Positions 1,149-39,991 of a stretch of DNA of 41,242 nt are shown here, piece after piece (position 1 is the first letter of the stretch; each line of letters starts with the position of its first letter). The notes under the pieces are model-generated. The model had not been told where the DNA came from and did no database searches. It saw only the letters and a program-made list of their open reading frames with translations. The stretch is taken from contig JAQIDC010000032.1 of the NCBI GenBank assembly GCA_027858235.1, positions 1 through 41,242 of the forward strand, in the 5' to 3' direction. Both the position numbers and the translations under genes were made by a program. This DNA is from Patescibacteria group bacterium (GTDB taxonomy: Bacteria > Patescibacteriota > Patescibacteriia > Patescibacteriales > BM507).

Positions 1149-2012
1149 CTAATTAAACTCTTTCAACAAATCCTTCCAATCCTCCACCGATAACTCTTGT
1201 GCTCTGATTTTTGCACTAAAGCCTGCCTTCACTATTTTTTCTTCAGCTTCTTTTTGGTCAATGCTGTAGCCAACTGATAAATTATTCTTAAGCATTTTTC
1301 TTTTGGCAGAAAAGCCAAATTTCACTAGTCTGAAAAAATCTTTTTCATTTATCCCCAGATTCTCCTCTCTTAGATTTAATTGTATTACCGCACTCTCTAC
1401 ATCAGGGGCTGGCCAAAAATCATCCCCTGGAACATTTGTAATAATTTTGGCATCTGCATAAAGCTGAACAGACACTGCGAGAAGACTCATCTTCCCAGCC
1501 TTTGCCACTATCCTTTCAGCTACTTCTTTTTGCAACATCAGAGTCAATGATTTTGGTTTATTTTTTAATCCAAAAACTGTTCGCAGAAATATTGAACTAA
1601 TGTTATATGGCAGATTTGCGACTATTTTATATTCATCTAAGCGACTTAGAGGTCCGACCTCTAAGGCCTTAGAGGTCGGACCTCTAAAATTTCCTGATAA
1701 AACCTCTATAATGTCTTGATTTATTATTTCTACATTTTTTATTTTGTCAGTCAATAATCTTGTTTTTAGCAATTCTGCCAATTTATCATCTAGTTCAACT
1801 GCCAAAACATTTTTTACTTTGTTAGCTAATCTTTCAGTCAAGAAACCAAGTCCTGGACCTACCTCCAGAACAATATCATTTTTATCCAAGTCGGCACTTT
1901 CAATAATTTTATCGTAAACATCCTCATTAACCAAAAAATTCTGCCCCTTTGACCGGGCAGGATTTATATCGTACAATTTACAAATTTTTCTAGTCTCCTC
2001 TAACAATTCCAC
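1149..2012 (-). CDS. rsmA: 16S rRNA dimethyladenosine transferase RsmA (KsgA)
   Basis: It dimethylates two adjacent adenines in the helix 45 loop of 16S rRNA during 30S assembly, using S-adenosylmethionine. The SAM-binding motif EVGPGLGFLT, the acidic AVELD strand and the catalytic NLPYNIS motif are present, with the C-terminal RNA-binding helices; length is normal. There is no ATG. The frame is open to a TTG at 2036, which would overlap the upstream gene, but homologue N-termini fit a GTG at 2012 (MELLEETRKICKLYD), chosen here. Between about residues 108 and 122 a 42-nt palindrome encodes an extra RGPTSKALEVGPL just before the strand leading to NLPYNIS, presumably a surface loop. The upstream Cys-rich gene ends a few bases away, so the two are probably cotranscribed. 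Confidence 0.93.
   Translation of the reverse strand: MELLEETRKICKLYDINPARSKGQNFLVNEDVYDKIIESADLDKNDIVLEVGPGLGFLTERLANKVKNVLAVELDDKLAELLKTRLLTDKIKNVEIINQDIIEVLSGNFRGPTSKALEVGPLSRLDEYKIVANLPYNISSIFLRTVFGLKNKPKSLTLMLQKEVAERIVAKAGKMSLLAVSVQLYADAKIITNVPGDDFWPAPDVESAVIQLNLREENLGINEKDFFRLVKFGFSAKRKMLKNNLSVGYSIDQKEAEEKIVKAGFSAKIRAQELSVEDWKDLLKEFN
1646..1687. repeat. 42-nt double palindrome inserted in frame in rsmA
   Basis: A perfect 42-nt palindrome made of two 19-nt near-palindromes (TTAGAGGTCCGACCTCTAA type) joined through a central AAGGCCTT. It has the design of the copies at 37777 and 39662, with paired substitutions: where those have GACGTC this has GAGGTC or GACCTC, so the stem is kept while the sequence changes. 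Only one of its three frames lacks a stop, and rsmA reads that one. Confidence 0.9.
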
Positions 2013-2016
2013 AAAA

Positions 2017-2532
2017 TTAATCTTTAAAACTGGCAATGCCGTATTTTATTATTTCATAATATTTTTGGAAAATGTTTTTGTTGTTAATCGTAATACAACC
2101 TGCCCCGACACAACCACCCTGGCCCGCTAAAGGACCTTGATCCATTTGTGTTGGTGTATTACCGGCAGCAATTAATTGCCCCCCCGAGGCAACTCCAGCA
2201 GCAGCCATATTTGATTTTGTTAATAAAATATTACTAGCCGTTCCACCAGATGGAGCACCTGAAACATCTGAGTATAAAGGACAAGAAGGCAATTCTGGGG
2301 TTTTTACCGTGCAGAGAGTCCCACCAGCACAACAAGTTGGCCCAGAGGGTGTTGGGCAAGAAAGGAAGCAATCTATTGTGGCTATTCCTGTCAATCCAAC
2401 CTGTGTAGGAAAACCTCCGCCAGCAACTACTTCCTTCGCTAATTCAAATCTAGCCTTTGGCCAAAAAACAAAATAAACAGCAACAATTATTACAACTAAA
2501 AATACAGACAAAGCTAATGATATTTTTTTCAT
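2017..2532 (-). CDS. Cys-rich secreted or membrane-anchored protein, function unknown
   Basis: I do not recognise this 171-residue protein. It begins MKKISLALSVFLVVIIVAVYF, a positive N-terminus and one hydrophobic segment acting as signal peptide or anchor, so most of it should be outside the membrane. The body is rich in Gly, Pro, Ser, Thr and Cys, with clusters at DCFLSC, TCCAGGTLC and GGCVGAGC, which suggests disulfides rather than catalysis. The start is a clear ATG just 33 bases from the divergently read gene at 2584, with an AT-rich promoter-like gap between. The stop lies next to the rsmA start. The DsbA-like protein at 9717 is a plausible disulfide donor, by inference only. Confidence 0.55.
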   Translation of the reverse strand: MKKISLALSVFLVVIIVAVYFVFWPKARFELAKEVVAGGGFPTQVGLTGIATIDCFLSCPTPSGPTCCAGGTLCTVKTPELPSCPLYSDVSGAPSGGTASNILLTKSNMAAAGVASGGQLIAAGNTPTQMDQGPLAGQGGCVGAGCITINNKNIFQKYYEIIKYGIASFKD

Positions 2533-29945: not shown

Positions 29946-29982
29946 TAGACCTCAGATGTCCTTAAAGACATCGGAGGTCTTA
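29946..29982. repeat. Intergenic palindromic element related to the leuS insertion
   Basis: TAGACCTC-GATGTC arms pair with GACATC-GAGGTCTTA. On the minus strand it aligns with the insertion in leuS at 7429, with both-strand changes that keep pairing (GATGTC/GACATC against AAGGTC/GACCTC). It lies directly upstream of the U32 gene. Confidence 0.7.
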
Positions 29983-30220: not shown

Positions 30221-30311
30221 ATACAAATACTTTAGCTTTTTTAAGCTAAAAAATCAACTTTTAAACGAATAAAAACAGCATCCAAGAAAGAATCTGCATT
30301 TTAATTTAAAA

Positions 30312-31274
30312 TTATTTTATTCCTAATATTTCCTTTCTGTTTGAAGCTTTACTTTCATATATTTTTGATGCTTCATAATCTTTTTTATTATTGGTGTACT
30401 TGTAACGAAAGTCATAAGCATCTGCCAGCAATTCATAAGATCTAATTTCGGCGTTTGTGTATGCTTGATTTTCAAGAGTCCCAAAAGTGTCCAAACTTGT
30501 CTGAATAACATCTTCCACCAATTTATCTATAACAATCATTTCACTTTGGTCTTTTTTTGATAAATTATTCCAGATATTCTGAGCTTTTTGTAAATTCAAA
30601 TGTGCCAACTCTTGCTTAGCTCGAATAGCATCTTTATTATTACCAGCATCTTCAAGCTCTGGTATTATTTCTTTTTTAAATATTACTGCTTTCTCTGGTA
30701 TCTTTATGGCACTATTAAAAATACGTCCATATTTAGCTTTTGCCTGCAAAGATCTATCATCAGTCTCTTCTCCAACTTCATCATTTAAAGACATTGCTTC
30801 TTTTTTGTTCTGCTCAACTACTCCTTTCCAGGAAGCAAGATGATGTTTAACATAATGCAAAACAGTTTTATCTTCTAGCATATCTTGGTTTTCGAAAACC
30901 ACTCCAACAAGTTTGTAGAAAAGTTTTTCGTCTCGAGCGTGATATGCGATAGAAACCAAGTCAGACAATACTGATTCAGGAATATTCTCCCGATGGATTA
31001 TCTCTAGCAATCTTCGTTCATCAATTGACTCAAGATTTGATCCAGAAGATTCCTCCAAAAAAGAATTAAAAGAATCTAGGAATAAATATTGATTTTTATT
31101 TTTCCTCCCTCTGTCATAAATAAGCCTCTCCCTCGAAAGCGGATCTGAAAGAAATTTTTTTATATCATCAATTTTATTTTCGGCTAAAAAAGACTCTAGA
31201 TTAGTTACAATATCTAAAGCTCCGCCCTCTTTGTTGGTTTTTTTTTCTGAAGAGAAATTTATAATTTCATTCAT
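30312..31274 (-). CDS. Helical protein of unknown function
   Basis: I do not recognise this 320-residue protein. It is acidic and almost wholly helical, without signal peptide or membrane segment. The first 60 residues (after MNEIINFSSEKKTNKEGG) look flexible; the middle (SVLSDLVSIAYHARDEKLFY, HYVKHHLASWKGVVEQNKKE) and the end (QAYTNAEIRSYELLADAYDF) resemble repeat-type helical hairpins such as TPR-like scaffolds, though no repeat is clear. The frame is open to 31346, but the extra 24 residues are translated from the terminator hairpin of the gene upstream, so the ATG at 31274 is chosen. It lies in one direction with the unknown genes on both sides. Confidence 0.65.
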   Translation of the reverse strand: MNEIINFSSEKKTNKEGGALDIVTNLESFLAENKIDDIKKFLSDPLSRERLIYDRGRKNKNQYLFLDSFNSFLEESSGSNLESIDERRLLEIIHRENIPESVLSDLVSIAYHARDEKLFYKLVGVVFENQDMLEDKTVLHYVKHHLASWKGVVEQNKKEAMSLNDEVGEETDDRSLQAKAKYGRIFNSAIKIPEKAVIFKKEIIPELEDAGNNKDAIRAKQELAHLNLQKAQNIWNNLSKKDQSEMIVIDKLVEDVIQTSLDTFGTLENQAYTNAEIRSYELLADAYDFRYKYTNNKKDYEASKIYESKASNRKEILGIK

Positions 31275-31321
31275 ATTTTGTATTCTTATTATATAAATAA
31301 AAAAACTATTAGGCAAGAAAA

Positions 31322-31345
31322 AGGCTGGTACTTGCATACCAGCCA
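31322..31345 (-). terminator. Intrinsic terminator after the 31368 gene
   Basis: The stem GGCTGGTA / TACCAGCC with a six-base loop is followed on the minus strand by TTTTTC. It ends the gene with the structured leader and shows that the upstream ORF extension of the next gene is not coding. Confidence 0.85.
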
Positions 31346-31367
31346 TAAAAAATAGATAAAGGAGCGA

Positions 31368-31922
31368 CTACATAAAACTTGAGAAAATCAAATTTTCCAT
31401 CTCAGCTACTTTCACAACTTCCGGTTTTTTGGGAGTAAAAATTCCCACATAGCCTGAGAGACGATTTTTATCTGGCGAAAAAAGTAAAGACAAAAAGCCC
31501 TTAAACTCACCATTGATCGACAATTCCCCCTCGGAAGAAACTAATACTACCTTTTTTAGCCTTAACATTGCATTGGTGATAGAAAACCTCTCAACCACAT
31601 CACCGGAATCATTAACAACCAGCATCCCGATTAATTTCCCTTCTTCGGAAACACCAATGGTGTCAAGAGGAATCCCTAGATCTGGCTCCTGAAAAACAAT
31701 ACCGGCACCATGTGGATTTTCATGAGTAGAATACTCATAGAATTTTTTTATCCCATTGTCGGCTGGATTGTAATGCAAAAGATCAGCTCCATCAGGAGTT
31801 CCAGTAAGCCTATTAAGCCAACCTCCCCGACCTTTAACCACAATTTCCTGACCAGGATCGAGAACAATCATTCCGTTTTCATCAAGATTGAGCCTTATGT
31901 TTTGCTTTGCGTTCTCACTCAT
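31368..31922 (-). CDS. Protein of unknown function with a structured leader
   Basis: A 184-residue protein I cannot assign. It begins MSENAKQNIRLNLDENGMIV and is rich in beta strands and turns: LDPGQEIVVKGRGGWLNRL, DTIGVSEEGKLIGMLVVNDSGD, LVSSEGELSINGEFKGFLSLL. No signal peptide or Cys. It has one of the few strong ribosome binding sites here (AAAGGAGAAAGAAA before ATG), a long 5' leader with a three-way-junction RNA and its own terminator, so it looks tightly regulated and well expressed. Its neighbour, also unknown, follows on the same strand. Confidence 0.7.
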   Translation of the reverse strand: MSENAKQNIRLNLDENGMIVLDPGQEIVVKGRGGWLNRLTGTPDGADLLHYNPADNGIKKFYEYSTHENPHGAGIVFQEPDLGIPLDTIGVSEEGKLIGMLVVNDSGDVVERFSITNAMLRLKKVVLVSSEGELSINGEFKGFLSLLFSPDKNRLSGYVGIFTPKKPEVVKVAEMENLIFSSFM

Positions 31923-31968
31923 TTTCTTTCTCCTTTCTCACCGCCACCGGCAAGACAAAAGATGTGTT

Positions 31969-32024
31969 AACTTAGCAGTTTTAGAGCCAGTCTAAAACTT
32001 TTTTCGGACCATCCGTGCTAAGTT
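31969..32024 (-). ncRNA. Three-way-junction leader RNA (candidate regulatory RNA)
   Basis: Read on the minus strand: a closing stem AACTTAGCA/TGCTAAGTT (9 bp, 32016-32024 with 31969-31977), then CGGA/TCCG (32012-32015 with 32005-32008, three-base loop), a six-A joint, then GTTTTAGA/TCTAAAAC (31991-31998 with 31978-31985, five-base loop) abutting the closing stem. All 56 bases are accounted for. It begins about 33 bases after the likely transcription start and ends 46 bases before the ATG. I do not know a named riboswitch with this shape. Fold by eye. Confidence 0.6.
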
Positions 32025-32063
32025 TTCACTAATTAAAAGAACCACTATATTTAAATCATTCTC

Positions 32064-32092
32064 TTTTTATCATCTTTTTACGTTATTGTCAA
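32064..32092 (-). promoter_or_regulatory. Candidate promoter of the structured leader and 31368 gene
   Basis: TTGACA (32087-32092), a 17-base spacer and TAAAAA (32064-32069) on the minus strand. The -10 box is imperfect (four of six). Confidence 0.5.
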
Positions 32093-32151
32093 TAATAAGC
32101 TAGATAAAAAATCTAATATTCGCCTTCTTAAAATTAAAATTTCCCCATATA

Positions 32152-32183
32152 AAAAAGGTATAGAATTAATTCTATACCTTTTT
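32152..32183 (-). terminator. Intrinsic terminator of the response regulator operon
   Basis: A perfect 32-nt palindrome (AAAAAGGTATAGAATT and its complement) followed by T residues on the minus strand, about 35 bases after the regulator stop. The bases between carry short TTACATG/TATGTG repeats. Confidence 0.88.
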
Positions 32184-32217
32184 ATGTTACATGTTATGTG
32201 TTACATGCTATGTGAAC

Positions 32218-33066
32218 TTATTTCCCTAAGTGGCTTTTAATCTTTCCAACTATCTCTTCTGTTGTAAAATGGGCTTTGACGAGATAGTCATTAGCTCCCA
32301 TATCCATTGCGCGTTTGATATCATTGTCCTGACCTAGGTTTGAAAGCATAATGATTGGAGTTTTGCTTACTTTTGGATCTGGACTTGCTCTTATTTTCTC
32401 TAAAATTTGAAAACCATCATATATTGGCAAAATTATATCAAGAAGTATTATATCTGGATTTACTTGAGAAGCACCTATTACTGCCTGTTCTCCATCGACT
32501 GCTTCAAAAACAGTGAATCCTTCTTTAGTGAGTTTCCTGCTGGAGATGTCGCGAAGAAAACTGTCATCTTCAACCAATAAAACATTAATACCTAGCTTGT
32601 TGGCATTTGGATCTTCTATTTTTGGTAACTGAATTTCAGGAACTATCTTTTCTGTTTCACTGTCGCCTCCTCCAGTGTTTTGTCCAATCTCTTTATTTCC
32701 ATCAATATATCTTTGAATCATTGTAATAACGTCCGTAGGGTTGAATTGCGTTTTAATAAGATGGTCAATAGCTCCCAATTGCTTTGTTTTTTCAATCTCT
32801 ACTGGTTGGCCAGAATTTGAAATAATAATTACCGGAATTTTTATATTGTTTTCTTTCATTTTTTCAAGCACATCATAACCATCCATTTTAGGCATTACAA
32901 TATCAAGCAAAATCATGTCTGGCATAAATTCAGCTATCATGTCATAACCTTCCTCCCCATCGAATCCAACTTTAACCTCATAGCCCTCTTTATCGAGTTT
33001 TGTACTAAGAACTTCAACCAAGGCTTCTTCATCCTCAATTAGAAGAATTTTAATTTTTTCTGCCAT
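32218..33066 (-). CDS. Response regulator with two receiver domains and no output domain
   Basis: A 282-residue protein made of two CheY-like receivers and a short Asp/Glu/Pro-rich linker (about residues 127-158). Domain 1: acidic pocket E11-D12, phospho-acceptor D55 in MILLDIVMP, Ser in IIISNSG, Lys in HLIKTQ. Domain 2: acidic pair in LLVEDDS, acceptor near D210 in IILLDIILP, Ser in IMLSNLG, Lys in YLVKAH. Both have all active-site residues, so each could be phosphorylated. With no DNA-binding domain it must signal through another protein. It follows the histidine kinase gene by 15 bases, so the kinase is the probable phosphodonor. Confidence 0.93.
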   Translation of the reverse strand: MAEKIKILLIEDEEALVEVLSTKLDKEGYEVKVGFDGEEGYDMIAEFMPDMILLDIVMPKMDGYDVLEKMKENNIKIPVIIISNSGQPVEIEKTKQLGAIDHLIKTQFNPTDVITMIQRYIDGNKEIGQNTGGGDSETEKIVPEIQLPKIEDPNANKLGINVLLVEDDSFLRDISSRKLTKEGFTVFEAVDGEQAVIGASQVNPDIILLDIILPIYDGFQILEKIRASPDPKVSKTPIIMLSNLGQDNDIKRAMDMGANDYLVKAHFTTEEIVGKIKSHLGK

Positions 33067-37327: not shown

Positions 37328-38002
37328 TTATTCTAAATAATATTTTTTAACATCATCTTTCCTCTCAGTAGAGCTCCTAACTACATCTTGAACAAATTTT
37401 TCATATTCGTCAATTGATTGAAAGTTTTTTAGGATGGTTTGTTTATTAACTGGAATCTCTAATTCTTTTTCACCTAAATAATAAGAACAAGAACTCCAGC
37501 GATATTTTTCAGCTTTTTCTATTTTATGAATTTCTGAATTGGCATTTATATAAGCTGATAAATATTCTAGATAGTTTTGAGAGTCCACATGAACTGCTTT
37601 GAATTTTCCTTGGAATAATGAACCTGACCTTTCATGTTTACTGTTATAAAATTTGGTATATCCACCACCCATTCTTTTCATAAACTCAGAAATACCTCCA
37701 TCCTCTTTTTGTTTTACAAGTAAGTGGAAGTGGTTAGGTAATAAACTATACGCGATAATCTCAATTAACGGAGTTTTTAGACGTCCGACGTCTAAGGCCT
37801 TAGACGTCGGACGTCTAAAATGCGCGTCTTTCATGTTTTTCAGATATAAACTATATACTGGCTCGACATTATTAAATTCTTTTAAACTCAAAACAAACCT
37901 TTCATAATCATAAACATCTGAAAAAATATCGCGCTTATCAGTTCCGCGATTATAAATATGGTAATATTCTCCCGTTTCAAATTTTATTCTTTTTGATGGC
38001 AT
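37328..38002 (-). CDS. REP-associated tyrosine transposase (RAYT, Y1_Tnp family)
   Basis: A single-strand DNA transposase of the HUH class that in other bacteria is thought to move REP hairpins. It starts MPSKRIKFETGEYYHIYNRG, has the HUH pair H91-H93 in LPNHFHLLV, the nucleophile Tyr in GGGYTKFYN (Y115 or Y119) and the LFQGKFKAVHV motif typical of RAYTs. Residues 62-75 (FRRPTSKALDVGRL) are encoded by the 42-nt palindrome, placed in a loop before the HUH strand. Palindromes related to that element flank the gene on both sides. Full length for the family at 224 residues. Confidence 0.9.
   Translation of the reverse strand: MPSKRIKFETGEYYHIYNRGTDKRDIFSDVYDYERFVLSLKEFNNVEPVYSLYLKNMKDAHFRRPTSKALDVGRLKTPLIEIIAYSLLPNHFHLLVKQKEDGGISEFMKRMGGGYTKFYNSKHERSGSLFQGKFKAVHVDSQNYLEYLSAYINANSEIHKIEKAEKYRWSSCSYYLGEKELEIPVNKQTILKNFQSIDEYEKFVQDVVRSSTERKDDVKKYYLE
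37777..37818. repeat. 42-nt double palindrome inside the RAYT gene
   Basis: A perfect palindrome: two 19-nt halves of TTAGACGTC-C-GACGTCTAA type around AAGGCCTT. It is read in the only open frame on the minus strand. The same peptide appears on the plus strand, since the sequence is its own complement. Confidence 0.95.
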
Positions 38003-38025
38003 TCTTATTTTTTAAATTAACTCTG

Positions 38026-38042
38026 CAGGTGTCGGACACCTG
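38026..38042. repeat. Half-palindrome 5' of the RAYT gene
   Basis: CAGGTGTCGGACACCTG, a perfect 17-nt palindrome with the same GTC-G-GAC centre as the 42-nt element but different outer bases, 23 bases upstream of the RAYT ATG. A decayed version is at 39914-39927, upstream of the second RAYT. Confidence 0.75.
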
Positions 38043-38058
38043 AAAAACAATCAATTAG

Positions 38059-39473: not shown

Positions 39474-39887
39474 TTAATTCCTCTCAAATGCCCATTTCTG
39501 CCAAGCACCTGACCTTTCATGTTTACTGTTATAAAATTTGGTATATCCACCACCCATTCTTTTCATAAACTCAGAAATACCTCCATCCTCTTTTTGTTTT
39601 ACTAATATGTGAAAATGATTGGGTAATAAACTATACGCGATAATTTCAACTAACGGAGTTTTTAGACGTCCGACGTCTAAGGCCTTAGACGTCGGACGTC
39701 TAAAATGCGCGTCTTTCATGCTTTTAAGATATAAACTATATACTGGCTCGATATTATTAAATTCTTTTAAACTCAAAACAAACCTTTCATAGTCATAAAC
39801 ATCTGAAAAAATATCGCGCTTATCAGTTCCGCGATTATAAATATGAAAGAACTCCCCTGATTCAAATTTAATTCTTTTGGATGGCAT
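39474..39887 (-). pseudogene. Truncated second copy of the RAYT gene
   Basis: The first 126 or so residues are nearly identical to the RAYT at 37328 (MPSKRIKFESGEFFHIYNRG...; HUH as NHFHILV; GGGYTKFYN) and the 42-nt palindrome is at the same place. After KHERSG the sequence departs to AWQKWAFERN and stops, losing about 90 C-terminal residues. A deletion or insertion at about 39507 explains this. It keeps the catalytic His and Tyr, but a shortened protein is unlikely to be functional alone. The upstream palindrome is decayed too. Confidence 0.8.
39662..39703. repeat. 42-nt double palindrome inside the truncated RAYT
   Basis: Identical to the copy at 37777 and at the same codon position. The insertion therefore predates the duplication of the RAYT gene. 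Confidence 0.95.
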
Positions 39888-39991
39888 TTTTATTTTTTAA
39901 ATTAACTATACATCTGTCGGACACCTGCAAAGCTTCCTCTTGTCATCTCGACTGTAGCGCCAGCGGAATGGAGAGATCATAGGGATGAAAG

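Follow-up and report, generated by a model that had tools for sequence, protein, structure and literature searches.

A three-way junction and a Shine-Dalgarno hairpin in the leader of a rare Patescibacteria gene

A gene for a 184-residue protein in a Patescibacteria group bacterium is preceded by a leader in which a compact three-way junction lies directly upstream of a hairpin predicted to sequester the Shine-Dalgarno (SD) sequence. The leader lies in a 41,242-nucleotide stretch of DNA (the window). We read it, with moderate confidence, as a structured 5′ leader that influences translation or the stability of the mRNA, and this is the best of the readings considered. This reading draws on the stability of the leader as a whole, the extensive predicted pairing of the SD, the absence of the combined junction and hairpin from all shuffled sequences, the similar layout before one homologue (L040), and the register in which a second homologous leader (L008) matches at the SD hairpin. 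It is weakened by the frequency of SD hairpins among shuffles and among sampled SD genes, by the modest scores of the L040 match when the search is untargeted or uses sequence similarity alone, and by an alternative L040 fold.

Architecture of the leader

The elements of the leader and its surroundings are listed in Table 1. Folding exactly reproduced the three stems (9, 4 and 8 bp), the two small loops and the A6 joint described in the initial annotation, with 56 of 56 bases used; the loops measure 3 and 5 nt. The minus-strand sequence of the junction, read from 32024 to 31969, is AACUUAGCACGGAUGGUCCGAAAAAAGUUUUAGACUGGCUCUAAAACUGCUAAGUU, and its minimum free energy is -18.5 kcal/mol (z -4.1; 1 of 200 shuffles equally good), reaching -21.2 kcal/mol for the whole element when the extension of P1 is included. 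One A-U pair is ambiguous, and the folding programme places it in P3 rather than P1 (8+9); the bases left unpaired are mostly As. Because the plus strand of the 56-mer folds as well as the minus strand, folding alone cannot assign the strand, and the junction is placed on the minus strand since the gene that follows is on that strand.

Table 1. Positions of the leader elements, genes and neighbouring features in the window
Feature	Position	Strand	Sequence or basis
Three-way junction, 56 nt	31969..32024	-	fold prediction; rare in shuffles and in the genome
P1, 9 bp	32024-32016/31977-31969	-	strands AACUUAGCA/UGCUAAGUU
P2, 4 bp	32015-32012/32008-32005	-	CGGA-UGG-UCCG, UGG loop (3 nt)
A6 joint	32004-31999	-	single joint of the junction
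P3, 8 bp	31998-31991/31985-31978	-	GUUUUAGA-CUGGC-UCUAAAAC, 5-nt loop
Extension of P1	31964..32029	-	GUG/CAC beneath a 2x2 A-A internal loop
SD-sequestering hairpin, 34 nt	31929..31962	-	UCUUUU-G-UCUUGCCG-(GUGG)-CGGUGAGA-A-AGGAGA
Shine-Dalgarno sequence	31929..31936	-	AAAGGAGA; sequence
Promoter-like site, weak, 9/12	32044..32073	-	ATGATA-18-TATAGT; promoter scan
184-aa gene, rare Patescibacteria family	31368..31922	-	ATG at 31922
Intrinsic terminator of the 184-aa gene	31323..31344	-	
Downstream gene, 344 aa as listed (start 31346) but 320 aa when begun at the likely ATG	30312..31274	-	
Island of two genes and leader, ~1.9 kb (approximate)	30258..32140	.	missing at the syntenic position of the genus's only other genome
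Response-regulator terminator, just outside the island	32152-32183		

The SD hairpin is a second element that the initial annotation did not contain, and it emerged when the leader was folded up to the start codon. It is separated from the extension of P1 by a single unpaired base and its outer six pairs include the SD, which is predicted to be about 80-81% paired at 37 C. The leader as a whole (31923-32090) has a z of -5.2, with 0 of 200 shuffles as stable. The earlier proposal that a structured leader precedes the gene is supported; the SD and the ATG, the latter 46 nt from the junction, are both present, as is the gene's own terminator (31344-31323). The promoter candidate noted earlier is likewise present at 32073-32044, but it is weak, and since seven promoter-like sites were found where 4.0 +/- 2.0 were expected, it is weak evidence for a promoter of the leader.

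The junction and the SD hairpin are predicted to fold independently. The two share no bases, no mutually exclusive predicted folds couple the junction to the SD, and the unpaired fraction of the SD is predicted to be 0.19 both with and without the junction; because removal of the junction leaves the SD pairing unchanged, no switch by strand exchange is visible, though a tertiary or loop contact may exist. Inspection by eye showed loop L3 (ACUGGC) to be complementary over 6 bp to GCCGGU of the SD hairpin, and this match was set aside: by our own estimate it has a chance of about 1 in ten of arising at random, and it is without counterpart in L040.

Chance expectation and conservation

Three-way junctions with a P1 of at least 7 bp form in 0.7% of dinucleotide-shuffled 56-mers, none of them as stable, and when the spacer 31923-32140 was shuffled and scanned, 5 of 600 sequences reached -18.5 or lower. 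A scan of 159 kb of strand from this genome met compact three-way junctions at 3 places (about 1 per 50 kb), and the window holds two of these, the second being inside rpoC. One such junction per 41-kb window is therefore about what is expected; its placement in a short leader is not. A junction immediately followed by an SD hairpin appeared in 0 of 1500 shuffles, and the combination is absent from all the others of 27 SD genes from sampled genomes. Sequestration of an SD in a stable upstream hairpin, as predicted here, is by itself common by chance: hairpins of comparable size form in 26% of shuffles, owing to the pyrimidine-rich upstream sequence, so that hairpin counts across the family prove little alone, and the SD is mostly paired in 10 of the 29 SD genes sampled.

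Searches of the class with covariance models gave nothing beyond chance, either for the junction (381 genomes) or for the whole leader (372 genomes). With the window's own genome excluded, the best E values per genome were 0.0077 and 0.032 respectively, which is chance level given the number of genomes searched, and 22 genomes gave the junction model an E of at most 1. This model found no match beyond chance upstream of homologues of the 184-aa gene, the place where the initial annotation had expected conservation; conservation of the junction there is thus mostly lacking, although L040 keeps a similar layout. Against Rfam, the best matches in 31800-32250 fell far below gathering scores, and nowhere in the window did a curated covariance model reach its gathering score, which bears out the earlier remark that no named class is known with this shape.

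L040 is a Moraniibacteriota homologue whose protein is 48% identical to the 184-aa protein. Its leader of about 210 nt (z -6.1) contains a three-way junction (9, 8 and 4 bp) followed by an SD hairpin at its end; this hairpin has an 8-bp inner stem, as in the window, and GUGG in its loop, and the junction differs from that of the window. A model of the window's leader matches L040 from 1897 to 2010 (9.3 bits), so that its end falls no more than one base from the start codon (2010) and in register with it, and the match includes the common CGGA-GG-UCCG hairpin. Its E value is 0.0055 when the search is targeted at the leader alone and 1.3, in seventh place, in an untargeted 35-kb scan; sequence similarity alone between the two leaders gives p 0.064, and in a shortened context L040 favours another fold. 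The L008 leader matches the same model in exact register, mainly via the SD hairpin, with an E of 0.031. Since about ten leaders were tested in this way, both matches are suggestive only, and the L040 leader suggests a similar layout rather than proving covariation. Folds resembling the SD hairpin are also predicted in L006 and L008, and L004 has, right at its predicted 5′ end, an 8-bp hairpin beside a free SD, without a junction.

These figures bear on the view that the element has no function and is a chance or relic inverted repeat in an AT-rich spacer, left for example by template switching or a dead mobile element. We consider this unlikely, though to be taken seriously: compact junctions recur at the rate given above, even inside rpoC, both strands of the DNA fold equally well, and the junction is single copy with no evidence of covariation, but its position directly against the SD hairpin, a combination that no shuffle produced, and the similar layout in L040 both argue against it.

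The gene family and its genomic island

The 184-aa protein matches no Pfam, NCBIfam or PHROGs family. A 10-member profile of the family weakly resembles the Brain tumor NHL domain (E 0.0003, about 80 residues); AlphaFold, given four sequences, produced a poor model (pLDDT 54), and Foldseek returned no match with this low-confidence model. Searches recovered relatives from 8 further genomes of the class, from one more of the phylum and from one Moraniibacteriota MAG, the named carriers being Uhrbacteria, Magasanikbacteria and Moraniibacteriota, all of them Patescibacteria. Protein searches of the genus and order (111 genomes) recovered the gene in the window's own genome only, and no relatives were found in viral contigs. 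Judging from these searches, the family is rare in Patescibacteria.

The 344-aa protein encoded downstream is homologous to a 315-aa protein beside the L040 homologue (E 9e-27, with 31% of about 248 aligned aa identical), and the two genes therefore form a module. The operon proposed in the initial annotation holds loosely: it agrees with this adjacency in the Moraniibacteriota genome, but each gene carries a signal of its own, a terminator for the 184-aa gene and a promoter-like site for the 344-aa gene. The neighbour of the L008 homologue was examined as a possible third instance of the same partner and dropped (E 0.009 and 0.45, TPR matches only). In addition, we note that members of the family adjoin rmlD-like (dTDP-rhamnose) or glycosyltransferase genes in L004, L007, L009, L010, L011 and L040, these names being assigned by eye from translations; such neighbours hint at a surface-polysaccharide role for the family, and the window's 184-aa gene is not beside genes of either kind.

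The genus is represented by one other genome only, and there the response regulator gene directly adjoins a gene of 73/76 aa. In the window about 1.9 kb of extra DNA separates the two, comprising both genes of the module (184 and 344 aa), the leader and the terminator of the 184-aa gene. The 184-aa gene has a GC content of 40%, against 33% in a sample of the genome, and among the window's 31 genes it alone carries a suitably spaced SD-like tetramer; translation in this genome appears to begin mostly without an SD. The sole SD, the GC content and the absence of the island from the other genome together argue that the gene brought its own leader. Horizontal acquisition of gene and leader would be the simplest reading, loss in the other species being a possible alternative.

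A separate difference between the two genomes lies just upstream of the U32 peptidase gene, where a 7+7-bp hairpin (about 29947-29980, starting AGACCTC and ending GAGGTCT) occupies a spacer that is missing in the other genome of the genus, in which both genes overlap.

The junction was also considered as a dispersed palindromic repeat (REP, MITE or other mobile element) and this was rejected, the junction being single copy by DNA, by pattern and by covariance model. Other palindromes do occur in the window. A perfect long palindrome lies inside rsmA (1619-1708; ORF 1149-2036, minus strand), and others lie inside two RAYT-like transposase ORFs (37755-37810 in 37328-38002, and 39641-39696 in 39474-39887). 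The long palindromes have the form TTAGAGGTCCGACCTCTAA-GGCC-TTAGAGGTCGGACCTCTAA, with a GACGTCCGACGTC variant, and are in frame within coding sequence, giving peptides like RGPTSKALEVGPLSR; they look like a dispersed palindromic element that may have inserted in genes, reminiscent of the Rickettsia palindromic elements. A short palindrome, CAGGTGTCCGACACCTG, lies upstream of both RAYT-like ORFs (37990-38050 and 39880-39940), the second copy being degenerate. REP sequences flank RAYT genes elsewhere, and the arrangement here is similar.

Possible roles of the leader

If the leader acts on translation or mRNA stability, as we favour, transcription would start near 32037 and the mRNA would begin with the junction or close to it. 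There the junction may serve as a stable folded cap that protects the message and may let the SD hairpin fold correctly as a domain of its own. That hairpin would then repress translation until a ribosome, a protein (possibly the 184-aa product) or another factor opens it. The leader module was probably acquired together with its gene, transferred horizontally from a relative that uses SDs. The ompA mRNA has a stabilising stem-loop in its 5′-UTR, and the window's leader resembles it in that a stable structure is predicted to stand close to or right at the 5′ end, as does the L004 homologue with its hairpin beside the SD; it differs in having a three-way junction instead of a simple hairpin and in having a 5′ end that is predicted only.

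A more specific proposal, which we find quite unlikely, is autoregulation, in which translation would be repressed, as in ribosomal-protein leaders, when a protein (the 184-aa product or a different one) binds to the junction or to the SD hairpin. The window shares with those autogenous leaders a structured 5′ UTR with the SD buried in a hairpin before the gene of a small protein, folds like the SD hairpin recur in L006 and L008, and the profile similarity of the family to Brain tumor NHL is to an RNA-binding domain; yet that match covers only some 80 residues and may reflect composition, Foldseek found nothing with the low-confidence model, and the homologues have no common binding-site sequence. 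Unlike the ribosomal-protein leaders, moreover, the window's leader has no known binding motif or Rfam match, and its protein is neither a ribosomal protein nor a known RNA binder.

A bolder extension, which we regard as decidedly doubtful, is that the junction and SD hairpin constitute a new class of leader RNA, spread by horizontal transfer with the Patescibacteria-specific module of the 184-aa and 344-aa genes and controlling this module by attaching to its protein or to a small molecule, with the L040 leader as a second, strongly diverged member. A new class cannot be claimed without covariation, and there is no good evidence for a new riboswitch.

The initial annotation had offered a regulatory RNA or riboswitch, and of these the structured leader stands, while the riboswitch is unsupported by conservation or by a coupled fold, which weakens the idea without killing it. 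As a ligand sensor the junction would be the aptamer and the SD hairpin the expression platform, and we judge this very improbable. A compact junction abutting an SD hairpin is the layout of translational riboswitches, and a similar layout is seen in L040, but there is no conserved core beyond chance level among the 381 genomes or upstream of homologues, no Rfam match and no sharing of bases between the two elements, the SD being equally unpaired with and without the junction, and the unpaired residues are mostly As. Purine-class riboswitches are small three-way junctions of three helices closed by P1, and the window's junction is like them in these respects; it differs in lacking a conserved core, visible complementarity of its hairpin loops, overlap with a platform and an Rfam match. 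An RNA thermometer acting on the SD hairpin is extremely improbable, since the SD does sit in an interrupted hairpin but its predicted opening is almost flat, from 0.18 to 0.23 unpaired between 10 and 45 C.

In part of a recent review (PMC11665869), translation regulation is expected to be key in Patescibacteria, and riboswitches are mentioned in that part only as tools to be introduced. Translation control in this group is little known, and the window's sole SD, predicted to be buried in a structured leader, would be a natural test case for SD-dependent initiation in an SD-poor genome.
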